Of a stretch of 41,978 nucleotides of DNA, positions 8,678 to 41,978 are shown one piece after another. The notes beneath the pieces are model-generated. The model was not told the DNA's origin and did no database searches. It saw only the letters and a program-made list of their open reading frames with translations. Origin of the DNA: Syntrophobacteraceae bacterium (GTDB taxonomy: Bacteria; Desulfobacterota; Syntrophobacteria; Syntrophobacterales; Syntrophobacteraceae); NCBI GenBank assembly GCA_013314815.1, contig JABUEY010000018.1, positions 1 through 41,978 on the forward strand, written 5' to 3'. Positions within the stretch are counted from its first letter, which is position 1. The number at the start of each line of letters is the position of its first letter. The position numbers were made by a program, and so were the translations under genes.

Positions 8678-8710
8678 AACCGTTTCCCGAAATGGGGAAC
8701 GGTTTTTTTT
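8678..8710 (+). terminator. Riboswitch-controlled intrinsic terminator, abutting the thiF start
   Basis: An 11-bp stem (8678-8688 with 8694-8704, one G-U pair) closes a 5-nt loop and is followed by eight T residues ending at 8710. The thiF ATG begins at 8711, directly after the T tract. The GGGGA of the 3' arm is the only purine-rich ribosome-site candidate, so the same hairpin could also hide it. Confidence 0.92.
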
Positions 8711-9478: not shown

Positions 9479-9571
9479 CGGCTTGAACCCGGGCACGGAC
9501 GCCCGGGCCGCCATGAGGTCGAGAAAAGCTTCCCTGACAATGAACGATCCACACCAGAGAGGTGAATCAAG

Positions 9572-20706: not shown

Positions 20707-21360
20707 TCACACAATCACATAGCGTTTGATGGTGTGGACGACTTCGTCGGGATCATCGAGCAGCGTCACGAATTCGAGGTCCCCAGGGGAGATGTAGCTT
20801 CCCCCGAGCAGCGTTGCGCGCACCCAGTCCAGCAGTCCCGACCAGTAATCCTTGCCTACCAGGATCACCGGAAAAGGCTTTATCCTCTTGGTCTGGATGA
20901 GGGTGAGCGCTTCGAATATTTCATCCAGGGTGCCGAAACCGCCCGGCATCCCGATGTATGCCTGAGCATACTTGACAAACATGACCTTTCGCACAAAAAA
21001 ATACTGAAAGTCGATCCTCAGATTCGAATACGGATTCGGCTCCTGCTCCAGCGGCAGTTCGATATTCAAACCCACCGATTTGGCTCCGCCTTCCCGCGCA
21101 CCCTTGTTGCCCGCTTCCATAATGCCCGGCCCGCCGCCCGTTATGACATGGAATCCGTTTTGAGCGAGCTTCCTCGCGATGACCACCGTCTTCTCATAGG
21201 TTTCATCTCCAGGCCTGACTCGAGCGGAACCGAAGATGGATACTGCGGGATAGAGCTCCGAGAGCGTTTCGAAACCGTCCACAAACTCCGCCATGATCTT
21301 GAACAGCCGCCATGAATCGTGGACGGTTATCGCGTTGATGACATACTGTTTTTCCCCCAT
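20707..21360 (-). CDS. LOG-family protein (TIGR00730 type)
   Basis: LOG-family proteins are Rossmann-fold enzymes, some of which are cytokinin-type nucleoside 5'-monophosphate phosphoribohydrolases. The protein has SIFGSARV near residue 40, ITGGGPGIMEAGNKGAREGG, and the diagnostic PGGFGTLDEIFEALT around residues 139-153, where Glu acts in catalysis. The preferred start is ATG 21360, with AAGGAAG 8 nt upstream; an upstream in-frame TTG (21396) has no ribosome site. Length from there is 217 residues, normal. The physiological substrate in bacteria is often unknown; it may salvage or remove modified nucleotides. It is convergent with the RNase G gene. Confidence 0.88.
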   Translation of the reverse strand: MGEKQYVINAITVHDSWRLFKIMAEFVDGFETLSELYPAVSIFGSARVRPGDETYEKTVVIARKLAQNGFHVITGGGPGIMEAGNKGAREGGAKSVGLNIELPLEQEPNPYSNLRIDFQYFFVRKVMFVKYAQAYIGMPGGFGTLDEIFEALTLIQTKRIKPFPVILVGKDYWSGLLDWVRATLLGGSYISPGDLEFVTLLDDPDEVVHTIKRYVIV

Positions 21361-21396
21361 TTCCAGCTTCCTTTTGTTTAGGTTACCCGATTTCAA

Positions 21397-21768: not shown

Positions 21769-22038
21769 ATGGAGATCAAGGATTTCGTCAAAGCAGCCTT
21801 GAAGAAGGTTGCACAAAAAGTCAAAGACGGTTCGCTGGACAAGCAGGAACCGGGATATAACGATTCTGAGGAAATGCTCCTCGACTGGATATGGATAGAA
21901 CTCAAAGAGGAATCCCCCGACAAGGATGCCGTGATCGACATGGACCTCGACGATCTCTACGAGGTGATCGAGAGTTCGGCGGACATGTACGAGGATTACC
22001 ACATACTCCTGGAATCCATCAGGACCGAAGCCGACTGA
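21769..22038 (+). CDS. Small acidic hypothetical protein, 89 aa
   Basis: I do not recognise this protein. GGAGG lies 9 nt before ATG 21769 and codon use fits the neighbours. The N-terminal 30 residues are lysine-rich (MEIKDFVKAALKKVAQKVKDG), while the rest is strongly acidic, with MLLDWIWIELKEE and DAVIDMDLDDLYEVIESSADMYEDYH. No Cys, signal peptide or membrane segment is visible. It is followed by an intrinsic terminator 29 bp after its stop, so it is probably a single-gene transcript. A small helical adaptor or regulator is possible but unproven. Confidence 0.65.
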   Translation: MEIKDFVKAALKKVAQKVKDGSLDKQEPGYNDSEEMLLDWIWIELKEESPDKDAVIDMDLDDLYEVIESSADMYEDYHILLESIRTEAD

Positions 22039-22090: not shown

Positions 22091-22106
22091 ATTTGCGGAA
22101 AAAGGG

Positions 22107-23282
22107 ATGAACGTTAAGCCGGTCCATTTACTCCCGGGGTCCGAAAGGCGCATTCTCCAGGGACATCGCTGGGTCTTCAGCAACGAGATCGCCGATCGCA
22201 TGGCGGACTACGAACCCGGCAGCTGGGTGGAAGTCTACTCCTCCAAGAAGATGCTGCTCGGCACGGGATACATCAACCCGAAATCACTCATCGCAGTGCG
22301 CCTCGTGTGTCCGCCCGGTACCCATATCTCAAAAGACATGCTGCATCGGCTCATCTTCGATGCCGCCGCACGGCGAAGCGAACTCTACTATCCGGGATCC
22401 TCCTGCTACCGGGCCGTATACGCAGAATCGGACGGACTGCCCGGACTCATCGTGGACCGCTATGGAGAAATACTCGTATACCAGACCACCACTATGGGCA
22501 TGGCCAGAATAGAACCTCTCCTGCAGGAACTTCTCCTCGATATCTTCAAACCTGCCGCTCTCATCTTTCGAAACGACACCCGGCTGAGACTCCTCGAGGG
22601 CCTTCCACTGGAAAAGGGTGTGGCCGCAGGAAAACTCCCCTCCGAGTGCCGAACCGTCATCGACGGCCTTCACATGCATCTGGATCCCCTGGAAGGCCAG
22701 AAAACCGGGCTGTATCTCGATCAGCGGGACAATCGCCGAGCCGTGGCCGGCTGGGTGAAAGACAGGAGGGTCCTCGATCTTTTCTGCTACGGGGGTGCGT
22801 GGAGTCTTACTGCCGCGGCGGCGGGGGCACGCGAGGTGCTGGGAGTCGACCAGTCTGCGGATGCCGTCCGGCTGGCTCGTACAAATGCACTCGAAAATGG
22901 AGTCGCCGACCGATGCCGGTTCCTGGTCGATGACACATTCCACCTGTTGAAAACCATGAACAGAGGTTCCTTCGACATGATCATACTCGACCCGCCGGCA
23001 TTCGCAAAAACCAGGAACTCCCTTCCCCAGGCAAAGAAAGGATATACCGATCTCAACCGCAGGGCACTCCTTGCACTTGCTCCGGGAGGTATCCTCGTCA
23101 GCTGTTCCTGCTCCTACCACCTGGGCGATGATGCGTTCAGAGAGGTCCTCGTGCGAGCGGCCCAGGCGGCAGGCCGGCAGCTGCGGCTGCTCGAAGCTCG
23201 CGGCCAGGCCCTGGATCACCCCGTTTTGCTGTCCATGCCCGAAACCCGTTATCTCAAATGTCTTGTCCTGGAAGTCGCCTGA
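22107..23282 (+). CDS. rlmI: RlmI-like 23S rRNA m5C methyltransferase
   Basis: A 391-residue class I SAM-dependent methyltransferase of the RlmI (YccW) type, which methylates C5 of a cytosine in 23S rRNA (C1962 in E. coli). An N-terminal PUA domain is seen in SERRILQGHRWVFSNEI. The middle EEHR-type region contains AESDGLPGLIVDRYG. The catalytic domain carries QKTGLYLDQRDNR, SAM motif I in VLDLFCYGGAWSLTAAAAGA, motif IV DPPAFAKTR, and motif VI LVSCSCSYHL with the likely catalytic Cys. ATG 22107 follows GGAAAAAGGG. It lies just after a terminator, so its promoter must overlap that region or rely on read-through. It is the last clearly housekeeping gene before the phage-type region. Confidence 0.88.
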   Translation: MNVKPVHLLPGSERRILQGHRWVFSNEIADRMADYEPGSWVEVYSSKKMLLGTGYINPKSLIAVRLVCPPGTHISKDMLHRLIFDAAARRSELYYPGSSCYRAVYAESDGLPGLIVDRYGEILVYQTTTMGMARIEPLLQELLLDIFKPAALIFRNDTRLRLLEGLPLEKGVAAGKLPSECRTVIDGLHMHLDPLEGQKTGLYLDQRDNRRAVAGWVKDRRVLDLFCYGGAWSLTAAAAGAREVLGVDQSADAVRLARTNALENGVADRCRFLVDDTFHLLKTMNRGSFDMIILDPPAFAKTRNSLPQAKKGYTDLNRRALLALAPGGILVSCSCSYHLGDDAFREVLVRAAQAAGRQLRLLEARGQALDHPVLLSMPETRYLKCLVLEVA

Positions 23283-23357: not shown

Positions 23358-24095
23358 CTACTCGAATTCCCTTCCCACCCAGCGAATACGGCCGAGGACA
23401 TGGTTCATGAGTCCTTTTGGAGGGTCGATAGCGAATTCGAAGGGCCGGTAATCAACCGTGTTGTCCGAAAGGCAGGTCAGCTTCAGACTTTCCCCGTCCC
23501 TGCCCAGTACAAGGCGCTTCAACGCCGTGCTGCCGTCCGGAAGGATCACGAGATAGATCCGCCCGGGCAGAACATGCCGACGCTCCTCCTCTCGCGCGTC
23601 CACAAAAGCCGTTTCCCCCTGGTTGATGGTGGGAGACATGGAATCTCCTCTCACCCGGATGAGAAAGAAATCCTTTCCCGACTCACCCTGCCTGCCCAGA
23701 ATCCTCTCCACCCACGAAGATGTGAACGGGTAGTATTCGGCAACTTCCTGGTGAAGCAGCCGCCCGTCCATCCCGGCCGTCACCCTCGATTCAAGCAGCG
23801 GCACGAACACCGGCCGGTCTTCACCGGTACCAGCCGGTAAGCCGGCCTGCCGTTGGAAAGGAGTCCCCGTCCCGCTCAACAGCCACTCGGCTTCGACGTG
23901 AAACTCCTCGCACAACACCAGCAGAAAATCCGCGGGAGGCGATGTCACTGCATCCCGGTAATTCACCAGCGTATTCTTGGACACCCCCGTTCTTCGAGCG
24001 AACTCGGGCAACGAAAGACCAGAATTATGGATTATGCTGCGGATTCTTCCAGCGAGCTTCTCTCTATCCTTTTTCCTTTTCATACTCCATCCCAT
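23358..24095 (-). CDS. Phage-type repressor: XRE helix-turn-helix plus S24 peptidase
   Basis: The N terminus is a DNA-binding HTH (LPEFARRTGVSKNTLVNYRDA, about residues 34-54). The C terminus is a LexA/CI-like S24 domain with the catalytic serine in VRGDSMSPTINQGE and the lysine in TALKRLVLG. An Ala-Gly pair in ESRVTAGMDG, between the domains, is a likely self-cleavage site, so the repressor would be inactivated by RecA after DNA damage. ATG 24095 has AAGGAG 11 nt upstream; ATG 24083 is an alternative. It faces left, divergent from three small genes, the usual arrangement of an immunity region. It stops 76 bp from the end of the rlmI-like gene, so a prophage boundary may lie in that gap. Confidence 0.88.
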   Translation of the reverse strand: MGWSMKRKKDREKLAGRIRSIIHNSGLSLPEFARRTGVSKNTLVNYRDAVTSPPADFLLVLCEEFHVEAEWLLSGTGTPFQRQAGLPAGTGEDRPVFVPLLESRVTAGMDGRLLHQEVAEYYPFTSSWVERILGRQGESGKDFFLIRVRGDSMSPTINQGETAFVDAREEERRHVLPGRIYLVILPDGSTALKRLVLGRDGESLKLTCLSDNTVDYRPFEFAIDPPKGLMNHVLGRIRWVGREFE

Positions 24096-24164
24096 TCCTT
24101 GAATATCTCCTTGCAAGGCTCCCATGCAGACTCCACCCGGCTTCAGCCCCTCCGGTGATCCTTT

Positions 24165-24180
24165 TTTAGCATGAACTAAA
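24165..24180. promoter_or_regulatory. Inverted repeat in the repressor/early-gene gap, candidate operator
   Basis: TTTAG (24165-24169) and CTAAA (24176-24180) form an inverted repeat around 6 bp inside an A/T-rich patch. It lies between the divergent repressor and first small gene, next to the TTGACG of a rightward promoter candidate, where a repressor would bind. Confidence 0.4.
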
Positions 24181-24188
24181 TTTTTGGA

Positions 24189-24217
24189 TTGACGGTTCAC
24201 TTCTTTGGTGCTAGCCT
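24189..24217 (+). promoter_or_regulatory. Candidate rightward early promoter
   Basis: TTGACG (24189-24194) and TAGCCT (24212-24217) are 17 bp apart. It would drive the small gene at 24265. The -10 is weak. Confidence 0.35.
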
Positions 24218-24264
24218 TCGCCGTGAATTGCCGGCATTCGTCGTAATCGACGCAGCAGGAAGAT

Positions 24265-24537
24265 GTGGACTGGCCGCGGGAAGTCAAAGCCGTTCTCGGG
24301 AAAAAGGATGTTGCCTCGGACTGCACCTTTCGCGAAGCGGACATTCTCGAACAATCCCCTGCCCGGGTGCACGGCGCCGTTCGAGCTCATTCGGCCCGCA
24401 TCAGGCAGGGCGGTGAAAATCCGTGGAATTTCTTCGCCCTTACCGGCTTGAACCCTGTGCATGGAACTCCCGAGGATGACCGGATGATCAGGATCTTATC
24501 GGCATCCATCCAAACCGTCCATCGGATTGATTCATAA
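24265..24537 (+). CDS. Small hypothetical early-region protein, 90 aa
   Basis: I do not recognise this protein. It is chosen over other frames because third codon positions are strongly G/C and the translation is balanced: DWPREVKAVLGKKDVAS near the start, then TFREADILEQSPARVHGAVR, and GGENPWNFFALTG near residue 60. The only available start is GTG 24265, after an in-frame stop; AGGAAG lies very close upstream, so the ribosome site is suboptimal. It is the first rightward gene after the repressor, the position of ner/cro-like or other early phage genes, but no helix-turn-helix is evident. It could be mis-started or a remnant. Confidence 0.42.
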   Translation: MDWPREVKAVLGKKDVASDCTFREADILEQSPARVHGAVRAHSARIRQGGENPWNFFALTGLNPVHGTPEDDRMIRILSASIQTVHRIDS

Positions 24538-24680
24538 TAATGGATCATCTGCCTTTTGCAAGACAGAATTCAGGTTTACACCATTGGATCAGGATCGGAA
24601 CAGAGGGTCATCCCGAAAGGATCGGATGAATTCTGCCTGGAGGGAAACGACACGGCACCCGGAACAGGAAGGAGACCGTT

Positions 24681-24950
24681 ATGAGGTCGAACGGGCAATG
24701 CGTGATGTGCGGACAGGACAAGAAGATAACGGCTCATGGACTATGCACCGCCTGCTATCACAGGCAGAGAAGGAGGAAGGGGACAGACCGGGTGAAGGGT
24801 GCGAAGGCTGCCGGCCTTGTTCTTCAGGTCGATTTCCAACCCATGTCCGGCCTCTTCGAGGACCTGAAACAGCGTGCGGACGCAGAACTCAGGGACGTAT
24901 CCAGCCAGGTTCTGTGGGAACTGAGCAAGAATTTCGAAAGGCGGGCATGA
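24681..24950 (+). CDS. Small zinc-ribbon protein, 89 aa
   Basis: The N-terminal half holds two Cys pairs, CVMC (residues 7-10) and CTAC (22-25), separated by KKITAHGL, followed by a basic YHRQRRRKGTDR stretch. This is a short treble-clef or zinc-ribbon type finger with a basic tail, likely binding DNA or RNA. The C-terminal part (SGLFEDLKQRADAELRDVSSQVLWELSKNFERR) is helical. GAAGGAGA precedes the ATG by 5 nt, an excellent ribosome site. Position between the repressor and a small HTH gene suggests a phage early gene. The function is not known. Confidence 0.68.
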   Translation: MRSNGQCVMCGQDKKITAHGLCTACYHRQRRRKGTDRVKGAKAAGLVLQVDFQPMSGLFEDLKQRADAELRDVSSQVLWELSKNFERRA

Positions 24951-25067
24951 ACCGCGCCGGCACCACATTATGAACACCGGCGCGTCGCTGTTGTGCTTTC
25001 CCGCCTGCCGGGCTTCGTCCACGGCGGCGGCGGATATTCGAGCATGCGCGACAAAAGGAGAGACACG

Positions 25068-25277
25068 ATGCACAAGCCAGGCCACAGGGGCAGAATGAGA
25101 GATCACGCGGTCATCCTGCTCAGACTGCTCGAAGAACACAAACGCATATCACTGGTTCGAATCGCCGAGGAACTGGGTTCGAGTGAACAGACCGCGCGAA
25201 GGTGGGTGGACTCCTACAGCTGCGTGCTGCCCATCCGGATGGAGAAGGGCATCGTCATCGTGGGGGATACCGAATAG
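25068..25277 (+). CDS. Small winged-helix/HTH protein, 69 aa
   Basis: AAAAGGAGAGACACG immediately precedes ATG 25068, so this start is preferred to in-frame starts upstream. The protein has a DeoR/MarR-like helix-turn-helix: RISLVRIAEELGSSEQTARRWVDSY spans about residues 29-53, followed by a short beta wing PIRMEKGIVIVGD. It ends soon after, so it is a bare DNA-binding domain. It may control early phage transcription, or form part of an immunity switch with the divergent S24 repressor. That role is inferred from position only. Confidence 0.68.
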   Translation: MHKPGHRGRMRDHAVILLRLLEEHKRISLVRIAEELGSSEQTARRWVDSYSCVLPIRMEKGIVIVGDTE

Positions 25278-25434
25278 TCTGGCTGCCGCATCACGCGGCG
25301 AAAAAACGAAAGAGCCGGCGGGCGGCCGAGAGCATCGTTCCCTTTGCTGACTTCGGCCGTGCCGGCGGCTCCATCCCTGGGCTGGTAAGAATTCATCCGC
25401 CCCCAGTATCCGCTGTTTCAGACTTATAGAAGCC

Positions 25435-25671
25435 TCAGTAGCCCCTGCTTTTTTCCCTCTGGTCAACGATCGCTCCACCGACAACTCCCGCAGCGCCTCC
25501 GATTGCCGCACCGGCTGCGGGGCTTCCCCCGGCCGCGGCTCCAATGGCCGCGCCCGCGCCCGCACCGATTGCTCCACCGCTCAGCAAGCGCTGCTCCGTT
25601 CGCGTCATCCCGGCACAACCCGCAAGCATGATCAGAACGGAAAGTACTCCAATGATCCGTTTCACTTTCAT
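25435..25671 (-). CDS. Glycine-zipper lipoprotein
   Basis: A 78-residue lipoprotein. The N terminus KVKRIIGVLSVLIMLAGCAG is a signal peptide with lipobox LAGC, so Cys about 19 would be lipidated. It is followed by a glycine-zipper region rich in GAGAGAAIGAAAGG and AAIGGAAGVVGGAIVD, as in OmpA-like/SlyB/YMGG-type outer-membrane small proteins. AGGAGGTCCTGAT precedes ATG 25671. Such proteins sit in the outer membrane or periplasm and may affect envelope stability. It looks like a host gene, though it lies within the interval between phage repressor and phage late genes. Confidence 0.85.
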   Translation of the reverse strand: MKVKRIIGVLSVLIMLAGCAGMTRTEQRLLSGGAIGAGAGAAIGAAAGGSPAAGAAIGGAAGVVGGAIVDQREKSRGY

Positions 25672-25888
25672 ATCAGGACCTCCTGTAGAGGGTTTCATGC
25701 GTTATTATTACTACTATTCTTAAAAATAATGCCTCCGCCCGGAAGGTCAAGCTCCGCAGCCCGGCGCCCCCCCTGCCCGCGCAGCGGACGTGTCCAGCCC
25801 CGGGGCCTCTTCCTCAACCTGGATTGCGGCGACCCTGCGACAAAAACCCGGAGCAACGTCATGACCATCCCGCAGTTCCGAACATCAT

Positions 25889-25916
25889 TTGACAATCCGG
25901 CGGCATGACTTAGATT
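25889..25916 (+). promoter_or_regulatory. Promoter of the small Cys-protein gene
   Basis: TTGACA (25889-25894) is a perfect -35, followed after 16 bp by TAGATT (25911-25916). It faces right and lies about 110 bp before ATG 26027. Confidence 0.55.
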
Positions 25917-26026
25917 TTAAGCGTGAAGCGGGCAGTCGCTGCACATAATCTCTGGAGGATATCATTGACGTTGCAGTTTGAAGAGCGAGCGCCGCATAAG
26001 GGCGCTCCGGAATATGGAGGATTGAA

Positions 26027-26212
26027 ATGGCCGAAGTGAAAATGCCTCATCCCGCGCATGAGCAGCATCTGTGTTATCTGCACAACCTCGGGTATGTGGA
26101 ATCAAACCTGGAAGACTACAAGAAGATCGTGAGGAATCCGAACTTCGTGTGCAAGAACTGCGGACGCGCCGCCGCCAGCGACAAGAACCTGTGCAAGCCG
26201 GACAAGCTGTGA
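26027..26212 (+). CDS. Small Cys-rich protein, 61 aa
   Basis: A short soluble protein. It contains LCYLHNLGYVESNLEDYKKIVRNPNFVCKNCGRAAASDKNLCKP, with the CKNC pair and a later Cys plus one upstream Cys, giving four Cys that could hold a zinc ion. GGAGGATTGAA precedes the ATG, and a good promoter lies upstream, so it is expressed alone. I believe similar small proteins occur in other sulfate-reducing and related Desulfobacterota, but this is from memory and not checked. The function is unknown. Confidence 0.75.
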   Translation: MAEVKMPHPAHEQHLCYLHNLGYVESNLEDYKKIVRNPNFVCKNCGRAAASDKNLCKPDKL

Positions 26213-26260
26213 TCCGAAGGGCGATATCGACCCGTCCGCTTGTACACCCAAGCAGGTGAA

Positions 26261-26318
26261 CACTCCGGATCCAACGCAAAAGGTGATTTCGGAATGCCCC
26301 CTGGCGTGATCCGGAGTG
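26261..26318. repeat. Long inverted repeat downstream of the Cys-protein gene
   Basis: CACTCCGGATC (26261-26271) and GATCCGGAGTG (26308-26318) are perfect 11-bp arms 36 bp apart; ACGC and GCGT just inside extend the pairing with a small bulge. No T-tract follows. It could be an mRNA-end hairpin or a mobile-element trace. Confidence 0.6.
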
Positions 26319-26470
26319 GAGAGCTTCAGCCGACCGCATGACAGGAAGGAAGCTATTCCCAAACGGAGGCAAGGATCTGGATGCCTCAGTGCCGGCCCGG
26401 CATCCGCCTGGAATAGTGAACCTTCGTTTCAGGGAAGAATCGAGCACCCCCGTACGAGTTCGGCAGGCTG

Positions 26471-27055
26471 CTAATGGGCGGCGTTGTAAATCAGCTTCGG
26501 GTCAAGATCATAAGTCCATGGTGCACCGGAATTTTTCCAGCCGTTCTTCATTCTCTTGCCCTTGAAAGAGCTGTCTTCATCCTGGACCTTGTCCCCCTCA
26601 AATCCGTCCACCACATTATAGACATTCGTGAAACCCGCTGCCGCCAGGCGATTCGTCGAGGCGGCGCTGCGATGTCCAGATCGGCAAACGACCAGGATGA
26701 TGTCTTTTGTATCGAAGGCCTTCTTCACGGATGCTTCAAAGTCGGGATTATCCTGCAGGGCATAATCTTTCTTCTCGGGATCCCATTTTCCCGTCCAGGT
26801 TCTTGAAGGGATGTTGTGAGCCATCGGAGGATGACCGACATAGACATATTCCTCCGGTGTGCGACAATCGAGAATTTTTACTTTCTCCGGGTCCTTCAAC
26901 CACATCAAGTAGGCGTTGGCCGCATCCACATACTTGCCCAGGGTCGTGTGTTTCTTTTCGTCCTTCGGGGCGGGCATCTCCGCAGAAACGAATGAAAAGG
27001 ATCCCACTACGAAGAAAAGTACCAGGAAAACAAGAAGTCTCGTTGATCTGTGCAT
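26471..27055 (-). CDS. Exported rhodanese-domain protein
   Basis: The N terminus (MHRSTRLLVFLVLFFVVGSFSFVSA) is a Sec signal peptide with cleavage probably after VSA, so the protein is periplasmic. A single rhodanese domain follows, with the ILDCRTPEEYVYVGHPPMAHNIPS region near residues 61-84 and the active-site loop VVCRSGHRSAAS near 121-132, whose Cys would carry a persulfide. The end contains KGKRMKNGWKNSGAPWTYDLDPKLIY, a tail found in some periplasmic rhodaneses. GAGGAGGAG lies just before ATG 27055. It may handle sulfane sulfur outside the cytoplasm, which suits a sulfur-metabolising anaerobe. It is a host-type gene located between the prophage modules. Confidence 0.9.
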   Translation of the reverse strand: MHRSTRLLVFLVLFFVVGSFSFVSAEMPAPKDEKKHTTLGKYVDAANAYLMWLKDPEKVKILDCRTPEEYVYVGHPPMAHNIPSRTWTGKWDPEKKDYALQDNPDFEASVKKAFDTKDIILVVCRSGHRSAASTNRLAAAGFTNVYNVVDGFEGDKVQDEDSSFKGKRMKNGWKNSGAPWTYDLDPKLIYNAAH

Positions 27056-27106
27056 ATCTCCTCCTCTTCAACAAATCGCAGCAGTTCAGGCCGGGCCAGC
27101 GCCGAC

Positions 27107-27136
27107 ATTATAAGGGATGGGAAGAATCCCCTGCAA
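27107..27136 (-). promoter_or_regulatory. Promoter of the rhodanese gene
   Basis: On the minus strand TTGCAG (27131-27136) and a perfect TATAAT (27107-27112) are 18 bp apart. Transcription would begin near 27100, about 45 nt before the start codon. Confidence 0.7.
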
Positions 27137-27758
27137 GTTTTCCCTTTCGAAACGTCGAATGCCCCCGGCCCGGCGGCAGAGTGACTGAACAGTCCGGCAT
27201 TCAACTTCTCCCACATCGGTTACTGCAGGCGATCCACTCCCCACATCCTCAAGCAACGAACCATGGCGAAACAAAGACGGAACCTTGTCGTGCATTCTTC
27301 TCCTCAAATAGCCATTGTCCATCAAGTGGGTGACGCTCGGCCTCTGTAATCCGCCCTGGTCTGCATTCGAAAAATTTTTCCCCGCCGCCGGCTTCAACTC
27401 CATTGTTCCGGTCGCCGCCCGGCTTCCATCCTTGACTGTCAGCCATCCCTCGACAGGGTGCGAGGCCGGTTGTGACTCTCCCGCGCCAGGATCAAAATAT
27501 GTTGGACAACCCGCATGCGCATGCTAAGAAATAGACTGGGGGCAGGTGGCGGGACGATCCACGGATGGACCGTTTACTTTCACCGAATGCCCGTCGTGTC
27601 TTATCCGGAACGGGCTGCGCCGTCCTGAACCGCGCAAACCCGGAATTCGGATCACCGGACGGTCTTATCGAGTCATCGTTCGCCTGGTACCATGGATTCA
27701 TCCCCCTTGAAGGTCAAGATAAAGGAACAAGGGGTGACAGGGAGACGACCCGCCCGAT
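27137..27758. other. Intergenic region with no supported gene
   Basis: More than 600 bp separate the rhodanese promoter from the histidine-kinase gene. The short open frames here lack ribosome sites and protein-like composition. No tRNA, attachment-site repeat or insertion-sequence end is obvious by eye. Confidence 0.45.
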
Positions 27759-29576
27759 ATGGAACACCTGAATGTACTTCTTATCGAAGACGACGAAGAC
27801 GATTTCGTGATCATTCGCGATCTCCTTTCGGAAATCCGATCATGCAGTTACCATCTTGAGTGGGTTTCGAAGCGGGACAACGCACTGGATGCCTTGAAGT
27901 CGTCCGTTCACGATATCTGCCTTCTCGATTATCGCCTGGGCGAAACGAACGGCCTGGAAATCCTCGAGGACGCCATGGCCGCTGGCTGTGAGCTTCCGAT
28001 CATCCTCCTGACGGGCTACGGGGATTATGAAGTGGACGTCAGGGCGACAAGATCCGGCGCGGCGGACTTTCTGCCCAAGGATCAGATGACTTCGCATGTG
28101 CTCGAACGCGCCGTCCGCCACGCCCTCGAACACAAACAGGCCCGGGACGCACTGAAGAAAGAACGCGACAGGTTCATGAACATCCTGGAATCCATGCATG
28201 ATCCTGTCTACATCATCGACTGGGATTATACACTGAGATATATCAACCCAGTGGGGACAAGGCTTTTCGGACCGCAGTCCGCCGCACGGTGCTACGAGTA
28301 CTTCCACGGCAGGCGGGACCCATGCCCGTGGTGTAAGAACTCCCGGGTCATGCGGGGCGAGCCGGTCCGCTGGGAATGGACGACCGCCGATGGAAGAACC
28401 TACGACGTCTTCGACACTCCCCTCCTGAACAGCGACGGCACGATTCACAAACTGGGGATTCTGCACGATATTTCGGAATACAAGCGGGTAAGTGAGGCTC
28501 TGTACAAAAGCGAGGAAAAATACCGGATGCTCGTGGAAAATGCCGCGAGCATCATCATGACCATGGACAGTAGGGGAGCGATCACGTTCTGCAACGAGTT
28601 CGGGCAGAGATTTTTCGGGCTTACCGAGGCTGAGATGCTCGGCAGGAGCCCCGTAGGAATGATCGTACCGGACAGGCCGGAATCCAGGAGCGATCTTGCC
28701 TTCATGATCCAGGACATCGTTATGCATCCCGAACGCTACGAATGCAACGAAAGCGAAATCACTTTACGGAGCGGGAGAACGGCATGGATCGCCTGGACGA
28801 ACAAGGTCATCCAGGACGACCGGGAACGGCTGACGGGGATCCTCTCCATCGGGTACGATATCACGGAACGAAAACTGGCGGAGAAGACTCTTCGCGAATC
28901 CGAAAGGCAGCTTCGCTTTCTGTCGTCCAAACTTCTCACCGCCCAGGAAGAGGAGCGGAAAAGGATCGCGAGGGAGTTGCACGACAGTATCGGTTCGTCG
29001 TTGAGTGCGATCAAGTTCAGCCTGGAGCAGGTGTTGGAGAGGCTGGACGAACCGGAAGCGGTCCGGAAGTCCGTGGAAGCACTCATTGGTGCCGCGGCGA
29101 ACGCCATCGAGGAATCCAGGCGGATCATGACGGACCTGAGACCTTCCATTCTCGACGATCTCGGAATCGTCGTGACCATCGGATGGTTCTGCAGGCGGTG
29201 CAGGTCCATCTATTCCGACATACTCATCACCGAAGACATCTCCGTGGACGAGGCGGATATTCCCGAGCACCTGAAGATCGTCATATTCAGGATCATCCAG
29301 GAGGCCATGAACAATATGGCAAAATACAGCAAGGCCGGCGAGGTCCGGCTCTCTTTGGGAATGAACGAGGAACGGATCGAACTGACCGTTGCGGACAACG
29401 GCAGGGGGTTCGATCTCCATGAATGCCTCTCCCGTGAGGGCACCAGGAAAGGCCTGGGCATCACCAGCATGAAGGAACGCACCGAGTTGTCGGGCGGCAC
29501 GTTTTCCATCGAAACGGGCATCGGAAGAGGTACGCTGATTCGAGCCTGCTGGCCTTCAAGAATCCCGTGCGCCTGA
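27759..29576 (+). CDS. Hybrid sensor: REC-PAS-PAS-histidine kinase (NarX/DesK type)
   Basis: A 605-residue cytoplasmic signalling protein without membrane segments. An N-terminal receiver has acidic residues 11-12, phosphoacceptor D57 in CLLDYR, T85 and K107. Two PAS domains follow (about 137-245 and 252-372). The first carries C178, C189 and C192 in CYEYFHGRRDPCPWC, which could bind iron or a cofactor. The HisKA_3 dimerisation helix has H408 in ERKRIARELHDSIGSSLSAIK. The ATPase domain has the N box EAMNNMAKYSKA, DNGRG (546-550) and GLGITSM. Its partner would be a NarL/FixJ-type regulator, not found nearby. With REC first, another kinase probably controls it. No clear ribosome site is seen near the ATG. 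The signal is unknown; redox is a guess from the Cys motif. Confidence 0.9.
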   Translation: MEHLNVLLIEDDEDDFVIIRDLLSEIRSCSYHLEWVSKRDNALDALKSSVHDICLLDYRLGETNGLEILEDAMAAGCELPIILLTGYGDYEVDVRATRSGAADFLPKDQMTSHVLERAVRHALEHKQARDALKKERDRFMNILESMHDPVYIIDWDYTLRYINPVGTRLFGPQSAARCYEYFHGRRDPCPWCKNSRVMRGEPVRWEWTTADGRTYDVFDTPLLNSDGTIHKLGILHDISEYKRVSEALYKSEEKYRMLVENAASIIMTMDSRGAITFCNEFGQRFFGLTEAEMLGRSPVGMIVPDRPESRSDLAFMIQDIVMHPERYECNESEITLRSGRTAWIAWTNKVIQDDRERLTGILSIGYDITERKLAEKTLRESERQLRFLSSKLLTAQEEERKRIARELHDSIGSSLSAIKFSLEQVLERLDEPEAVRKSVEALIGAAANAIEESRRIMTDLRPSILDDLGIVVTIGWFCRRCRSIYSDILITEDISVDEADIPEHLKIVIFRIIQEAMNNMAKYSKAGEVRLSLGMNEERIELTVADNGRGFDLHECLSREGTRKGLGITSMKERTELSGGTFSIETGIGRGTLIRACWPSRIPCA

Positions 29577-29854
29577 TCTCTGCCCCCTTTCCCCAGGATC
29601 CGCCGCACATGCCGCAGTCTCCCACCTGACCACGTGCTTCTCCCACAGATTTTCTGCCGTCCGCCCCGTCTCCACCCGCCGTTTTTCTTCAGTCCACTTC
29701 AAAAAAATTCCCCGTTCCTGCCACTACGTGGAAAACGAGCCTGCTAGCTTCCCCGCCAGGGTCCACTGCCAGGTCTTCTTTCGGGCGTCCCGACTCAGGC
29801 GGCCCGGCAGGTGCGGGCCTGTATGCCATACTTCCGGAACGGGGAGGGCTGAAC
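29577..29854. other. Gap before the phage late module, possible module boundary
   Basis: This 278-bp stretch holds no gene I can support. It separates the kinase gene from the first phage late gene. It should contain the late promoter or the left junction of the phage module, but I could not identify either. Confidence 0.35.
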
Positions 29855-30268
29855 ATGATCTTGGGTAATATTCCGATAATCGGCCAAGTGGTCGGCAAGG
29901 TTATCGGACTGATCGACAAAGTGGTGGAAGACAAGGACCAGGCTTCGAGACTCAAACACGATCTTCAGATCGAACTCCTGAACAGGGACTTCTCCTTCAT
30001 CGAAAAGGAAATCGATGCCCGGGCTCAGATCATCGCCGCCGAAGCCCGGGGCAAAAGCCGGCTCCAGCGCAACTGGCGCCCCCTGCTGATGCTCACCTTC
30101 ACCTACATCATCGCCCACAATTACATCATATCCCCCATGTTCAGCCTCCCCAGACTCGATATTCCCCCAGACATGTGGGAACTGCTCAAGCTCGGCATGG
30201 GAGGCTATATCGTCGGACGGTCCATCGAAAAAGGTGTCGAAGCCTGGCGCAAACAGGATCCCACCTGA
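29855..30268 (+). CDS. Phage holin of the 3-TM/GTA type
   Basis: A 137-residue protein with an N-terminal hydrophobic segment (LGNIPIIGQVVGKVIGLI), a charged helical part with EKEIDARAQIIAAEARGKSRLQRNWRPLLML, then TM segments around LTFTYIIAHNYIISPMF and LGMGGYIVGRSIEKGVE. The QRNWRP-LLML junction is typical of the holin family called GTA_holin_3TM (PF11351), first described in gene transfer agents and common in Mu-like phages. It would open the inner membrane at lysis. It is the first gene of the late module; no endolysin is visible beside it. Confidence 0.75.
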   Translation: MILGNIPIIGQVVGKVIGLIDKVVEDKDQASRLKHDLQIELLNRDFSFIEKEIDARAQIIAAEARGKSRLQRNWRPLLMLTFTYIIAHNYIISPMFSLPRLDIPPDMWELLKLGMGGYIVGRSIEKGVEAWRKQDPT

Positions 30269-30292: not shown

Positions 30293-30655
30293 ATGACCGC
30301 AATGGACGGTATGACCCTGGATGCAATTCTCAAGATCATCTCCAACTTCGGCATACCCGGAATGGTCCTGGTGATCTGGTACTTCAGCGAGAAGTCCCAT
30401 GAGCGAACCCTCAAACAGTACCGTGAAGACATGATGGGCCAGCGCATGATGTATGAAGACGGCATGCAGGAAATCAGGCGCATGTACGAGAACAACGTGG
30501 AACTCGTCAAAAACTATGCGTCCCTCGCCGGCAATCTCAAGGATGTGGTCATGATCAATACCCGATCCTGGCAGCGTGTATCCGACGACGTCAACCGGAA
30601 CCAGTTCTGTCCGATGGTGCGTTTGAAAAAGGACGCCGTGGGAGTACAGCCATGA
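30293..30655 (+). CDS. Phage protein with one TM segment and coiled coil
   Basis: A 120-residue protein with a single N-terminal TM segment (FGIPGMVLVIWYF, about residues 19-31) and a long helix rich in Glu, Arg and Met (KQYREDMMGQRMMYEDGMQEIRRMYENN). It sits between the holin and a small coiled-coil protein, the place where Mu-like phages carry lysis accessory genes. A spanin-like or holin-regulating role is possible. It overlaps the next gene by 4 bp. I do not recognise a named family. Confidence 0.62.
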   Translation: MTAMDGMTLDAILKIISNFGIPGMVLVIWYFSEKSHERTLKQYREDMMGQRMMYEDGMQEIRRMYENNVELVKNYASLAGNLKDVVMINTRSWQRVSDDVNRNQFCPMVRLKKDAVGVQP

Positions 30656-30894
30656 ACGAGAGACTGAAGTTCCTGGGCAGGCTCGAAGAAAAACGCCTCG
30701 AGGCCGAACAGATGAAGCTGCGCATGGAAGGGTTGAGGGATTCCGTTCGAGATATCCTCGACCCGTTCGAACCGGTCGAGCACGTCAAAGCCGACGCTGC
30801 AGCGGCATTGACCGTGGAGCTCGCGGCCGTCCAGATCCGGTTGAGAGAGGCTCTTGCCGAAATGACCGCCATAAGGAAGGCTCTTTCCCGATGA
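30652..30894 (+). CDS. Small coiled-coil phage protein
   Basis: An 80-residue, almost entirely helical protein (FLGRLEEKRLEAEQMKLRMEG ... LREALAEMTAIRKALSR), with heptad-like Leu spacing. It overlaps its neighbours on both sides by 4 bp (ATGA junctions). Position matches the small coiled-coil gene that comes just before the terminase genes in Mu-like phages (Mu gp25/gp26 region). The function is not established. Confidence 0.62.
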   Translation: MNERLKFLGRLEEKRLEAEQMKLRMEGLRDSVRDILDPFEPVEHVKADAAAALTVELAAVQIRLREALAEMTAIRKALSR

Positions 30895-31577
30895 CCCGTT
30901 CCGCTCCCATCATGCACCGGGATAAATCCGGAGATCGCAAAACGATTCGCGCCGGATGCTCTACGGGGTTCTCTTCCCGAACCAGCCGGACATCGAGCGA
31001 GAAGGGGATGCACGAAACCGAAAGGTTCCTGCACGCCGAGGTCCTTCACATTATCGACGGATTTCCTCTGAGCCGTGTGGCCGAGATAACCGGGCTTCGC
31101 CTGGAAGAACTCGAGGCCGCCTGCGTTCGCGACCACTGGCAGGAGCGTCGGCGCGAGTTTGTCGGAGCAGTGCTCGACATTCGCCGGAACACGACCATGT
31201 TGAGAAAGCGCCTGATCGAAAAGGCTCTCGACAGCCTGGATCCCCGGGACATTTCCGCCGTGGCCAGGCTCGAAACCGCGGCGGCAAGAGAAAAGCCCGC
31301 CTGGGACATCCTGTCTTTCCACCTTTCTGACAAAAAAACCATCCAGGTCGATCCCATCGATGCCCTTCAAAAGGCAGTGGAACGAAAAACCGCGTTGATG
31401 CTGCACCGCCCCGAAAACTTGTCTCTCCAGGGCATCAGGGAGCTCAAGGAAACGCTGCAGCTCATCGAAACTTTGAAGCTGAGTGGCAAAGACGAAGAGA
31501 AGAACCGGACGTCCCGGGGGCTGTCGGAGGCCCGAATCGAGGAAATCCGCAGGAAGATACTCGGAATCTGCGAGTGA
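30891..31577 (+). CDS. Terminase small-subunit-position protein with N-terminal HTH
   Basis: Located directly before TerL, as in Mu where gp27 precedes gp28, so it probably recognises phage DNA for packaging. A helix-turn-helix is visible in FPLSRVAEITGLRLEELEAACVRDHW (about residues 58-83), followed by long helices and a C-terminal NRTSRGLSEARIEEIRRKILGI. The ATG at 30891 overlaps the previous stop, suggesting coupling, but the first 39 residues look disordered; ATG 31008, with GAAGGGG immediately upstream, is an alternative. Sequence likeness to Mu gp27 is not clear by eye, so the function rests on order and on the HTH. Confidence 0.66.
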   Translation: MTRSAPIMHRDKSGDRKTIRAGCSTGFSSRTSRTSSEKGMHETERFLHAEVLHIIDGFPLSRVAEITGLRLEELEAACVRDHWQERRREFVGAVLDIRRNTTMLRKRLIEKALDSLDPRDISAVARLETAAAREKPAWDILSFHLSDKKTIQVDPIDALQKAVERKTALMLHRPENLSLQGIRELKETLQLIETLKLSGKDEEKNRTSRGLSEARIEEIRRKILGICE

Positions 31578-33178
31578 AAGAGACGTTTGAAATGATCGAA
31601 ACCATGAGATCCATCCAGGCTGAAGAGATTCTCGATGAAGCCCGGCAGGCCGGCAAAGACCCGGTTAAAACGGGCAGGGAGCCTGGTTTCCCATGTGGAG
31701 ATCTCCCGCGGACATCGCGGGCTCCGGCGGCCCTGCTTCCCTACCAGCGGGCATGGATTGCCGATACGAGCCCCGTAAAGGTCTGCGAAAAATCCAGGCG
31801 GGTGGGCATATCCTGGTCCGAAGCCGCCGATGATGCACTCACCGCCGCATCGCGGAAAGGAATAGACGTCTGGTACATCGGATACAACAAGGACATGGCC
31901 CTGGAATTCATCAACGATACGGCGTTCTGGGCGAGGCACTATGGTCTGGCTGCCTGCTCGACGGAAGAAGCCGTAATCAGGGATGAAGACAGGGACATTC
32001 TGGCGTTTCGAATCCGGTTCGCATCCGGGCGTCGGGTGACCGCGCTGTCGAGCAGGCCGAGCAACCTGCGAGGCAAACAGGGAAAGGTGGTGATCGACGA
32101 GGCGGCCTTTCACGACGACCTGCAGGGGCTTCTGAAAGCGGCCATGGCCCTGCTCATGTGGGGAGGCCGAGTCGCCGTCATCTCCACTCACAACGGAGAA
32201 GACAACCCCTTCAACCAGTTGGTGAAAGATGTCCGCGCGGGTAGAAAGCCCTACCGCCTGCACCGTATCACCCTGGACGACGCCCTGTCGCAGGGGCTCT
32301 TCCGGCGCATCTGCCTCAAGACCGCACGGCCGTGGACCCTGGAATCTGAAAACGCATGGAGGAAAAGCCTCATCGAGTTCTACGGGGAAGACGCCGACGA
32401 GGAACTCTTCTGCGTGCCGGGTCGCGGTTCGGGGGTCTTCATGTCACGAGCCCTCATCGAGGCATGCATGGACCGGGATATTCCCGTTTCGCGCTGGACC
32501 TGCCCGCCGGACTTCGTCGAACTGCCCGAACACATCCGGACGGCCCATGCTCTCGATTGGTGTGACCTGCACCTGGCTCCCCTTCTCGCCGGTCTGCCCG
32601 AAAATCATCCCACGTACATCGGCGAAGACTTCGGTCGAAGCGGGGATCTCACCGTGATCGTTCCCCTGCAGGAATGCTCCGGCATGAAGTATCGTACTCC
32701 TTTCGCTGCGGAACTCCGCAACGTCCCATTCCGGCAGCAGGAGCAGATCCTCTTCTACATCGTCGACCGACTGCCGCGCTTCCGTGCCGGCGCACTCGAT
32801 GCCCGGGGCAACGGCCACTACCTGGCGGAAGTGGCCCTGCAACGATACGGGTCCGCTCGAATTCACCAGGTCATGCTTTCGGACCGGTGGTATCTCGAAA
32901 ACATGCCTCCGTACAAAGCGGCTTTCGAAGACAGGGCCATCACCATCCCGGGAGATCCGGACATACTGGACGATCACCGAGCCATCCGCATCGAAAGAGG
33001 GATTGCCAGGGTGCCGGAGGGAGTTCGAAACCGGGGCCGGGACGGCGGCCGCAGGCATGGAGACGCCGCAATGGCCTGCGCACTGGCCTGGTATGCCGCC
33101 CACAGCAGCCAGGCCGGACCGGTGGAATACCAGACCGTGGCGGGGACTCGCTTCTCGGACCAGCGGGGAGCCTACTGA
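31574..33178 (+). CDS. Terminase large subunit (Mu gp28-like)
   Basis: The packaging motor and nuclease. The ATPase has a Mu-gp28-type variant Walker A, CEKSRRVGISW (residues 71-81), and Walker B VVIDEAAFHDD (172-182); a coupling motif is likely in VISTHNGEDNPFNQ. The RNase H-like nuclease has IGEDFGRSGDLTV (D352), LDARGNGHYLAE near 413 and HGDAAMACALAW near 499, supplying the three metal-binding acids. At 534 residues it is full length. The start is GTG 31574, overlapping the previous stop; ATG 31592 is an alternative. Mu-type terminases package by headful from integrated DNA, but no Mu transposase is visible here. Confidence 0.92.
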   Translation: MKETFEMIETMRSIQAEEILDEARQAGKDPVKTGREPGFPCGDLPRTSRAPAALLPYQRAWIADTSPVKVCEKSRRVGISWSEAADDALTAASRKGIDVWYIGYNKDMALEFINDTAFWARHYGLAACSTEEAVIRDEDRDILAFRIRFASGRRVTALSSRPSNLRGKQGKVVIDEAAFHDDLQGLLKAAMALLMWGGRVAVISTHNGEDNPFNQLVKDVRAGRKPYRLHRITLDDALSQGLFRRICLKTARPWTLESENAWRKSLIEFYGEDADEELFCVPGRGSGVFMSRALIEACMDRDIPVSRWTCPPDFVELPEHIRTAHALDWCDLHLAPLLAGLPENHPTYIGEDFGRSGDLTVIVPLQECSGMKYRTPFAAELRNVPFRQQEQILFYIVDRLPRFRAGALDARGNGHYLAEVALQRYGSARIHQVMLSDRWYLENMPPYKAAFEDRAITIPGDPDILDDHRAIRIERGIARVPEGVRNRGRDGGRRHGDAAMACALAWYAAHSSQAGPVEYQTVAGTRFSDQRGAY

Positions 33179-33194
33179 AAAGGAAATCCAGACC

Positions 33195-34820
33195 ATGCCT
33201 TCGATTCTCTATGACGCTCTGGGAAGACCGCTTCACACCAGCGAAACCTTCCGGCCGGACACCCGGGAACTCGCATCGATCCGCGTTCGAGACAGGTGGA
33301 GCGGCTACCCGTCCAACGGACTTACCCCGGAAAGACTCGCCCGCATCTTTCTCGAAGCCGACGGAGGGGACATGCTTCGCCAGGCCGAACTGTTCGAGGA
33401 AATGGAGGAAAAGGACGCCCACCTGTCGAGCCAGTTCCAGATCCGGAAGCTGGCCGTCCAGGGACTCGACTGGGAACTCATCCCCGGCGGAGAGAACCCG
33501 GCATCACGTGAAACGGCAGTCTTCTGCCGCGATTTTCTTGAAGCCTTCCCGGATTTGGATGGAGTCGTCCTCGACCTGCTGGACGCCCTGGCCAAGGGCT
33601 ACAGCGTTCTCGAAATCCTGTGGGAAGCATCCGAAAAACAGGCTTCCATCCGCGCTCTACCATGGGTCCACCCCAAAAAGGCCACTTTCCGGGATTCCAA
33701 TACGCTGCGCATTCTTACCGAAGACGAACCCGTACGCGGGATCGAACTCCCCCCTTTCAAGTTCGTCTACCACCGCTACAAGGCAAGATCCGGCCATGAC
33801 AGCCGGGGAGGCATTCTGAGAGTCTGCGCGTGGATGTACCTGTTCAAGAACTATTCCATCAAGGACTGGGTGTCCTTTGCAGAGGTGTGCGGAATGCCGC
33901 TCCGAGTAGGGAAGTATGAACCGGGAGCCAGCAAAGCCGACAAGGAAGCCCTCATTCAAGCCATTCGCTCCCTCGGAACCGACGCGGCAGGAATCATATC
34001 CAAGTCGACGGAGATCCAGTTCATAGAAGCTCAGAAATCTTCGTCTCTCAACATCTATGAAAGCCTTGCCAGGTTTTGCGATGCCCAGACTTCCAAGGCT
34101 ATTCTCGGCCAGACACTCACAAGCGAAGCAGGCGGCCCGGGCGGCTCGGGTTCCTACGCGCTGGGAAGGGTTCACGGTGACGTCCGGCAGGATCTCACCG
34201 AAGCCGATTGCATAGCTCTGGCCAAGACCATCACCCGCCAGATTCTCACTCCTCTCGTCGGTTTCAATTTTGGTTGGGACGCCCCCGTGCCCCTCTTCAG
34301 GTTTCTTTTCGAACCGCCCGAAAACCTGAAACTGACCGCGGAAACGTACAGGATACTCATCGACTGCGGGTTCGACATGAGCCAGGAGCATATGAGTGAA
34401 CGATTCAAGGTGCCCATGAGAAAGCAGCACGAACAGCCCCTTTCTCGTAGAAAAGCCGATGATCGGGGCTCCATACCGGCCTCGACGCTCATGGAAGCCT
34501 CCTTGAAGACAATGGACCGCGACAGGAAGAAAGGTCGGCCTGTCTCCCGGGATCCCAATCCAGACGAACCGGAACCGGGGCAGGAGTTCCTGGATGCCCT
34601 GGCGGATTCCATGCCGCTTCGGGGAGCCCCCCTGGATGCGGTGTTCCAGACCCTGATGCCCGCCATCCGGGAGGCCCGCTCCTACGAGGACATCCTCGAA
34701 GAAATCTACGCGCGGTACGGCAGTCTAAACACGTCGATGCTCCACGAGATGCTCAACCAGGCCATGTTCGCCGCCAATGTATGGGGGTGGCTCAAGTCCC
34801 GGCAGGAGGCTAACGACTGA
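33195..34820 (+). CDS. Portal protein (Mu gp29-like, DUF935)
   Basis: The portal forms the ring through which DNA enters and leaves the capsid. The 541-residue product has the DUF935 pattern: MEEKDAHLSSQFQIRKLAVQGLDWEL in the N-terminal third, DLLDALAKGYSVLEILWE, the FVYHRYKARSG segment, RVCAWMYLFKNYSIKDWVSFAEVCGMPLRVGKY and EAGGPGGSGSYALGRVHGDVRQDL. The last 130 residues are more variable. ATG 33195 has AGGAAA about 9 nt upstream and follows TerL by 16 bp. Its stop TGA shares one base with the ATG of the MuF gene. Confidence 0.93.
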   Translation: MPSILYDALGRPLHTSETFRPDTRELASIRVRDRWSGYPSNGLTPERLARIFLEADGGDMLRQAELFEEMEEKDAHLSSQFQIRKLAVQGLDWELIPGGENPASRETAVFCRDFLEAFPDLDGVVLDLLDALAKGYSVLEILWEASEKQASIRALPWVHPKKATFRDSNTLRILTEDEPVRGIELPPFKFVYHRYKARSGHDSRGGILRVCAWMYLFKNYSIKDWVSFAEVCGMPLRVGKYEPGASKADKEALIQAIRSLGTDAAGIISKSTEIQFIEAQKSSSLNIYESLARFCDAQTSKAILGQTLTSEAGGPGGSGSYALGRVHGDVRQDLTEADCIALAKTITRQILTPLVGFNFGWDAPVPLFRFLFEPPENLKLTAETYRILIDCGFDMSQEHMSERFKVPMRKQHEQPLSRRKADDRGSIPASTLMEASLKTMDRDRKKGRPVSRDPNPDEPEPGQEFLDALADSMPLRGAPLDAVFQTLMPAIREARSYEDILEEIYARYGSLNTSMLHEMLNQAMFAANVWGWLKSRQEAND

Positions 34821-36327: not shown

Positions 36328-36855
36328 ATGACCACGCTGAGCATCGCACTCGATGAAAGACGAACGAAATTCATTCTTCTCCGGCTGCTCAAAACCATGA
36401 GCGACCTCACCGCCGCCATGCGACAGGTCGGAGAGGTGGCGCGAGAACGGACCATGCAAAGCTTCGAGCGGAGCCGTTCGCCTTCCGGGACACCCTGGAC
36501 TCCTTCACGCAGAGCGCTTCGAACGGGCGGAAAGACACTCGTCCGAAACGCCGTTCTCAGGAACTCCATCCACGTTCGGGCATCGTCTGATCGGGTGGAG
36601 GTGGGAAGCCCTCTCGAATATGCCTCCATCCACCAGTTCGGCAGCTCCGGCAACGTCTTCTGCGCCCTCGGGAAAAGCGTTTCATCGAGGATCCTGGGAC
36701 CCGATCGACGCCGGAAATCAAAGTCCGCTTCCTGCCCGGGCACCCAGGAGACCCACTCCCGGGCAATTCCAGCCCGTCCATTTCTGGGATTGAATCAGTC
36801 CGACTGGGGAGAAATCCGGGATGTTCTGACTGACTTCCTTTGCGGCGGTATCTGA
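36328..36855 (+). CDS. Phage virion morphogenesis protein (Mu gpG-like)
   Basis: In Mu, gpG takes part in head/tail assembly. The product has the family features: SDLTAAMRQVGEVARERTMQSFERSRSPSGTPWTPS near the N terminus, then a VGSPLEYASIHQFG segment and the C-terminal PARPFLGLNQSDWGEIRDVLTDFL. The first two-thirds fits the Phage_tail_S (PF05069) pattern. The 175-residue length is normal. ATG 36328 has AGAGGA about 10 nt upstream. It lies in the canonical slot between the MuF gene and gpI. Confidence 0.86.
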   Translation: MTTLSIALDERRTKFILLRLLKTMSDLTAAMRQVGEVARERTMQSFERSRSPSGTPWTPSRRALRTGGKTLVRNAVLRNSIHVRASSDRVEVGSPLEYASIHQFGSSGNVFCALGKSVSSRILGPDRRRKSKSASCPGTQETHSRAIPARPFLGLNQSDWGEIRDVLTDFLCGGI

Positions 36856-37998: not shown

Positions 37999-38064
37999 CG
38001 GACCGGGGGGCGCACCGGCTTCCCGCGCATCATTCCCGCCGATTGAACAAAGGAGGAATTGAAC

Positions 38065-40239: not shown

Positions 40240-40258
40240 CCACAGAGGAAGGACGCTC

Positions 40259-41911: not shown

Positions 41912-41978
41912 CCACAGAAATGACGGCACCGCGCTGGAACGGGGTGCAGTGCGCGTAAGGTTCGAACGACCAGGAAGG

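Follow-up and report, generated by a model that had tools for sequence, protein, structure and literature searches.

Two kinds of described system stand close to a phage-derived locus in a Syntrophobacteraceae bacterium (Desulfobacterota): the Mu-like transposable siphophages and the gene transfer agents (GTAs). The locus lies on contig C29 of a draft genome, G000 (assembly GCA_013314815.1; 4.06 Mb, 97.7% complete), and the window referred to below is the whole of that contig, 41,978 nucleotides (JABUEY010000018.1). It comprises a control block, made up of an S24-type repressor gene and small genes, and a late module of Mu-type particle genes, with host-type genes between the two. We favour, with moderate confidence, the explanation that these are the parts of a Mu-type prophage that was domesticated and no longer moves, and that it is most probably a GTA-type system. 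It is a firmer claim, and in our view a very probable one, that the late module is vertically inherited, under selection and without a transposase.

Mu-like transposable siphophages (Rhodobacter phage RC1, Rhodovulum phage RS1, Pseudomonas phage Fc02 and a phage on contig C423 of a relative, G001:C423) are like the locus in their kinds of head and packaging genes, and G001:C423 has in common with the control blocks of the family the gene order S24 repressor, four-Cys (CxxC) protein, Gam, helix-turn-helix (HTH) protein. Unlike these phages, the locus has no MuA or MuB, carries host genes between control block and late module, and is inherited with its host. RcGTA and the other rhodogtaviriforms are alike in the tailed-phage origin of their particle genes, vertical inheritance, distribution over several loci and a holin family named for gene transfer release; in contrast to RcGTA, the terminase small subunit (TerS) here retains an HTH and the system is known from its genes alone. 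RcGTA has a different phage ancestor and is not known to carry Mu-type structural genes. The host of Dd1 belongs to another group, and the gene set and host of PBSX are unrelated to those considered here. Dd1, of Desulfovibrio desulfuricans, is the GTA already described from a deltaproteobacterial sulfate reducer (PMC11409702, PMC9662315), and PBSX, of Bacillus subtilis, as a GTA-like element that packages evenly dispersed fragments of host DNA (PMC12946183). Both count among the nearest described systems, Dd1 through its sulfate-reducing deltaproteobacterial host and PBSX as a GTA-like element whose packaged DNA is known. One account counts five genetically distinct GTA types (PMC11409702); another states that GTA prevalence is unknown, GTAs being hard to identify by bioinformatics (PMC11841831). 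In the open-access literature searched, neither a Mu-derived GTA nor a GTA of this family is described.

Window proteins were annotated by Pfam and PHROGs profile searches and compared across 26 genomes of the family, with a wider capsid search among 59 relatives. The layout given in an initial annotation of this DNA (an S24 immunity region, host-type genes and a kinase, then Mu-like late genes) is borne out by these profiles. The late module runs on one strand from 29855 (holin, terminase, portal, morphogenesis, neck, protease, capsid, then a siphovirus-type tail), and has the late structural genes expected of a Mu-like transposable phage. Its genes in the window are:

29855-30268, plus strand: holin (GTA_holin_3TM), the first late gene (PF11351, 6.7e-15; phrog_3427, 6.5e-30)
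30293-30655, plus strand: small late gene (phrog_25899, 5.5e-23; 77% to G004)
30652-30894, plus strand: small late gene (64% to G004)
30891-31577, plus strand: terminase small subunit, TerS (phrog_36038)
31574-33178, plus strand: terminase large subunit, TerL, of the Mu gp28 type (phrog_2, 2.7e-36)
32784-34820, plus strand: portal; the open reading frame (ORF) overlaps terL and the likely start is near 33200 (62-63% to the G004 copy)
34820-36199, plus strand: head morphogenesis protein (phrog_220, 2.5e-80)
36328-36855, plus strand: neck protein (phrog_26, 8.2e-29)
36931-37998, plus strand: head protease (phrog_328, 8.8e-67)
38059-38460, plus strand: small protein between the protease and capsid genes
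38502-39383, plus strand: major capsid protein, MCP (phrog_371, 1.9e-114)
39808-40239 and about 40236-40702, plus strand: head-tail connector genes (orthologs in G004, G013, G019, G021 and G024)
40973-41911, plus strand: tail-tube-type protein (orthologs in the same five genomes)

The module continues on contig C135, the first 201 bases of which repeat the window end (41778-41978), with a BLAST identity given as 100%; base 111 is the first to differ. On C135 the module spans bases 206-9537, with genes for tape measure, minor tail and gpJ-like proteins to about 9537, and ABC-transporter genes follow from 9800. The tail genes thus end ~9.3 kb beyond the window, and the late module totals about 21.5 kb and is flanked by no transposase on its left or right. 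A transposase just to the right of the window, which was to have revealed a rearranged but complete phage, is rejected: C135 finishes the module with tail genes and passes into host transporters, and no transposase or integrase is found among the matches on it. The C135 version of base 111 (L003 1-201) would stop the tail-tube gene seven codons early; the mismatch is either strain variation or an assembly error. The closest sequenced isolates by capsid are RC1 and RS1 (48.7% identity over full length), and by TerL they are Chromohalobacter, Klebsiella and Escherichia phages (54-55%). In alignment with relatives the acidic motifs of TerL are invariant.

The C-terminal domain of MuA (PF09299) has no match in the whole of G000, nor in G004, a single-contig genome, G019 or G024. 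It is found in seven of the 26 family genomes, including G001, G013, G017 and G021; the matches of G013 and G021 lie on contigs other than that of the late module, and those of G001, G013 and G021 sit in phages with early genes. These phages of the family itself serve as the positive control, since a control over 14 named genomes gave no positives. Half of the 14 IMG/VR records with related capsids carry PF09299 above the cut-off, and the usual relative of the late module is therefore an ordinary Mu-like phage. Of the MuA and MuB that define a Mu-like transposable phage, MuA is thus absent from G000 by PF09299, MuB having had no genome-wide search. The initial annotation was also right that Mu early genes and an endolysin are missing, none being found between 25277 and 29855. 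As to its option of a late module that depends on a helper, no transposase helper is visible, PF09299 being absent from all four genomes named above. One IMG/VR candidate for a MuA-less module, G062 (L019), was rejected: it encodes a MuA-type N-terminus as well as contractile-tail-like genes, and is a Mu-like phage. G000 has a second Mu-like structural locus, L123 (G000:C10:1-20000), with distant portal, TerL and gp27-like genes.

The capsid protein is present in 6 of the 26 family genomes, and in G027 among the 59 relatives. Trees were built from 52 of 115 matches for MCP and 53 of 200 for TerL (the best 45 locus rows by identity and all genome rows). In the TerL tree the late-module copies group with the IMG/VR record L011 in a single clade (97/94); its nearest neighbours, just outside, are the MuA-carrying phages of G021 and G001. 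L011 (IMGVR_UViG_3300022181_000106) is catalogued as a virus and is nearly identical to the late module of G004; virus catalogues may therefore include host-fixed particle genes. A host tree of Mfd (25 hosts) joins G000 with G004 and G024 with the pair G013 and G019, and sets G021 apart, which is the order of the late-gene trees for the six genomes. Pairwise identity in six late proteins rises and falls with that of Mfd (Pearson coefficients of 0.88-0.98, high values that owe much to the close pair G013 and G019). In this pair the module also shares both flanks, whose genes, as read from the sequence, are thiL-thiD on the left and selA-mfd on the right.

G013 and G019 are the one pair close enough for the ratio of non-synonymous to synonymous divergence (dN/dS), G000 and G004 being too divergent. 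The set comprised the 26 shared ORFs from the gene for a 965-aa kinase to the fibre gene, including four that are not of phage type, namely those for two kinases, a heat-shock-like protein and an exported protein; ORFs 24305, 25041 and 25436 of G013, being small or poorly shared, were omitted. Pooled dN/dS over these 26 genes between the flanks is 0.100 at a dS of 0.82, and over the four flanking host genes 0.085 at a dS of 0.67. Low dN/dS alone would equally fit an active phage, so it is the match in age and the flanks that carry the argument: vertical inheritance follows because late and flank genes are equal in age and both flanks are shared.

A Mu-like prophage that lost its early genes, with a late module drifting to loss, would account for the missing early genes and endolysin and for the patchy presence of the module. 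However, the relaxed selection expected of a decayed prophage is not seen in this pair, where the module genes are held as strictly as flanking housekeeping genes, and reading frames are intact across several genera, which leaves decay very improbable. We hold in equally low regard a mobile, unconventional phage or satellite whose early functions come in trans from another phage or from an unrecognised transposase. The second structural locus on C10 might be taken as a sign of such a phage, and a divergent transposase could escape PF09299, but the trees follow the hosts, both flanks are common to G013 and G019, and the single contig of G004 has no MuA match. Vertical inheritance and purifying selection instead point to domestication, which was not among the options of the initial annotation and which is favoured here for those two reasons. 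Long domestication explains the layout better than two remnants or a helper.

The control block and the genes on its left are:

20707-21396, minus strand: LOG-family gene, left flank (order kept in relatives)
21769-22038, plus strand: small acidic protein, left flank (order kept in relatives)
about 22104-23282, plus strand: S-adenosylmethionine (SAM) methyltransferase with PUA domain, left flank (PF10672/PF17785)
23358-24083, minus strand: S24-type repressor, longest ORF to 24344 (PF00717, 1.3e-12; phrog_4, 4.3e-33)
24189-24217, plus strand: early-type promoter region read from the sequence (TTGACG, 17 bases, TAGCCT)
24681-24950, plus strand: small four-Cys (CxxC) protein of the Mu-type early region (neighbours of S24 in relatives are 42-52% identical)
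24993-25277, plus strand: HTH protein, likely true start near 25069, candidate late activator (relatives' copies; profile search)

Copies of the four-Cys protein, at the identities given, lie beside S24 in G004, G019, G001:C132, G024 and the MuA-carrying phage G001:C423. The HTH protein is 56-69% identical to those of relatives and 40% to the copy that precedes the late genes in that phage. S24, CxxC and HTH adjoin one methyltransferase gene in G001:C132, G004 and G019:C3 and, as far as the contigs reach, in G024:C498 and G013:C85/C71 as well. The order LOG, small protein, methyltransferase beside S24 recurs in G004 and G001:C132, and LOG with the small protein in G013:C30. In G004, which belongs to another, sister genus, the whole order of LOG, small acidic protein, methyltransferase, S24, CxxC, HTH, kinase, late module and tail is that of G000. 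A Mu Gam gene lies between CxxC and HTH in G001, G019 and G013 (PF07352 in the phage copy, phrog_491 in G019). In the phage G001:C423 the genes S24, CxxC, Gam and HTH are accompanied by MuA (PF09299, rve) and by an ATPase of the MuB type, with related late genes behind them, and by this comparison the control block corresponds to a Mu-type early region from which A and B are gone. The left block was first read as S24 with small genes, which stands; Mu Gam in the versions of relatives, and the match to a Mu early region minus A and B, are added to it. As for two separate phage remnants, the halves are indeed separable, since control block and late module lie on different contigs in G013 and G019 (they are linked in G000 and G004). 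As first stated, however, this option is not supported, because both halves are related to one phage type, that of G001:C423, and are inherited across genera.

The S24 block occurs in five of six genomes with the late module and in two of 20 without it (Fisher p 0.0018), and the control-block HTH in four of six and one of 20 (p 0.0047), both p values ignoring relatedness; the HTH count, from a 26-genome profile search, leaves out a weak match in G014 and, apart from the phage-contig copy that was part of the query set, four further matches on phage contigs. In alignment with relatives the window repressor has the catalytic Ser and Lys. Among the full block repressors aligned, that of G004 (L091, G004:C1:2282818-2283552) has lost the catalytic pair of the S24 peptidase, with Ala for Ser in GDSM and Arg for Lys, and the other five keep it; the G004 repressor is possibly uncleavable. 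A complete ACCA-N6-TGGT lies between S24 and CxxC in G019, G024, G001 and G004, and half of it in G000. The motif is a putative operator of S24, and a lead only, because it was chosen after viewing the S24 regions. An operator common to both halves was rejected, the lone exact match in a late module being inside a minor tail gene of G004.

Between control block and late module lie:

25435-25698, minus strand: glycine-zipper lipoprotein, host-type (Pfam)
26027-26212, plus strand: 61-aa Cys protein, host-type (homologues behind the S24 block in relatives)
26471-27055, minus strand: exported rhodanese, host-type (Pfam)
27759-29576, plus strand: receiver-PAS-PAS-HisKA_3-HATPase kinase (PF00072, PF00989, PF07730, PF02518)

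The 61-aa Cys protein is also found behind the S24 block in G019, G025 and G013. Kinase orthologs lie upstream of the holin in G004, G013 and G019, so that the kinase adjoins the late module in four of the six genomes that have it; in G024 the contig ends before this neighbourhood can be read. G025 and G017, both without the late module, have an orthologous kinase beside thiD-thiL, and the kinase tree joins the module-linked kinases with these two. It is on this ground, orthologs adjoining thiD-thiL in module-free genomes, that the kinase is assigned as a host gene. The initial annotation had proposed that the rhodanese and kinase block in prophage-free relatives would reveal two independent insertions; the kinase is found there. 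Its further option, an early region lost or replaced, is supported by the absence of MuA and MuB, the host-type intervening genes, the kinase position in G025 and G017 and the 61-aa Cys protein behind the S24 block of relatives. Between kinase and holin, a small heat-shock-like gene was identified by eye in G013 (G013:C30:41297-41779) and G019 (G019:C67:3429-3908).

A number of observations weigh against a domesticated GTA-type system. The capsid tree groups the late-module copies (93/93), but phage L019 falls inside the group, a capsid clade without L019 not being rejected (AU p 0.48). The late module of G021 is away from the kinase, and the S24 block was not found in that genome; G001 and G025 carry S24 without a detected late module. 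Complete ACCA-N6-TGGT was not found in the late-module promoter regions. The GH108 endolysin family has no match in G000, and one such gene adjoins the late module in G004 and in G021. The TerS family differs between G000/G004 and genus g6 (PF11985 in G013); the g6 late modules yielded no morphogenesis or neck gene, and their tape measure has 266-305 aa, against 872 aa in G000 and an ORF of 1050 aa in G004. The TerS proteins retain HTH helices by sequence alignment, N-terminal ones in that of the window, and in a structural model of the latter helices 42-54, 60-67 and 71-80 have predicted local distance difference test (pLDDT) scores of about 83-92 (whole model 65.5); the known GTA TerS proteins are described as lacking a DNA-binding domain (PMC11841831), and this is the chief respect in which the system departs from known GTAs. 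The assignment as a GTA is a putative one, made from the genes.

Because the G000/G004 and g6 modules differ in this way, either phage recombination after a single capture or two captures is possible. The latter would mean that the G000/G004 lineage and g6 each domesticated a related phage beside this kinase, independently of one another, and would fit the different TerS families, the short tape measure and missing morphogenesis and neck genes of g6, the many intervening family members without the module and the differing right flanks. A 'same site' across all genera was rejected: selA-mfd is the right flank in G013 and G019 only, and is located away from the module or kinase locus in G000, G004, G021, G024, G025 and G017. 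However, the TerL clade (97/94) excludes the sampled phages, and the common kinase position would be a coincidence unless the site were an insertion hot spot. We therefore consider two domestications rather unlikely, and a single origin of the late module across the family probable. In G013 an exported-protein gene on the opposite strand splits terL from the portal gene (G013:C30:36562-37818); its homolog in G019 (G019:C33:143972-145258; 79% identity, dN/dS 0.16) adjoins the portal at a contig end.

Three of the six features in a published list for GTAs (PMC9662315) are seen here. Particle proteins are tailed-phage-derived (terminase, protease, capsid, tape measure and minor tail by profile; portal by homology). 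The genome is endogenised, as is often the case in several loci, with control block and late module separate in G013 and G019 and no MuA. Inheritance is vertical with host co-diversification, in six genomes and with one phage inside the MCP clade. Since the other three features (mainly random host DNA in the particle, a genome of its own that does not fit whole into it, and delivery of DNA to other cells) need experiments, the system is placed as a candidate that may work like a GTA, and is not filed as a member. The holin, of the GTA_holin_3TM family, also counts for this placing. Selected particle genes without a mobile genome would fit any use of the particle, such as killing competitors or carrying a cargo protein, and tail and fibre genes are retained; but so are terminase, portal, capsid and protease, which would be superfluous in a weapon made of a tail alone, and we think another task improbable. 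For GTA-type function itself we put the chances at about even.

A domesticated GTA-type system might have arisen and might work as follows. A transposable siphophage, akin to phages that the family carries today, would have been the ancestor and would have lost its transposase and replication genes, and two pieces would have been kept, the control block beside the methyltransferase gene and the late module, which in G000 stands behind a host histidine kinase. S24 may silence the block through the early-type promoter at 24189-24217; on its release, CxxC, Gam where present and HTH would be made. HTH, whose phage copy immediately precedes the late genes, would then turn on the late module, with the kinase possibly acting as a co-activator that links the module to a host signal. 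Heads would be expected to fill, because the invariant terminase motifs are kept, and would do so by headful packaging with host DNA, since the element has no mobile genome of its own. Packaging might begin at a preferred site and not at random, because TerS retains its predicted HTH. Cell lysis would release particles that deliver DNA to kin.

Two other features of the window lie outside the locus. At the left contig end (45-2208) is a clustered regularly interspaced short palindromic repeat (CRISPR) array of 36 exact repeats (GTGTTCCCCACATGCGTGGGGATGAACC) and 35 spacers, of which those at 500-532 and 622-654 are one base apart; when the G000 spacers were compared with the fetched loci, none of the matches listed outside the array exceeded 18 bases. 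A tRNA-Gly (tcc) is called by ARAGORN on the minus strand at 18462-18553, inside a long plus-strand ORF (17707-19083), and one of the two is probably false.

Vertical inheritance, matched synonymous divergence and the absence of a transposase together distinguish a kept particle from a broken prophage computationally, and the same test can be applied to any Mu-like prophage without MuA. We tentatively propose, at somewhat less than even confidence, that the system is a new GTA lineage of a Desulfobacterota family, and the first to have a transposable Mu-type siphophage as its ancestor: the transposition genes are gone, the Mu repressor, Gam and activator would persist as a control locus of their own, and behind a host two-component kinase would stand the particle operon. 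If this is true, a transposable phage would join the ancestors of GTAs, and the mostly uncultured Desulfobacterota would have a route of gene exchange.

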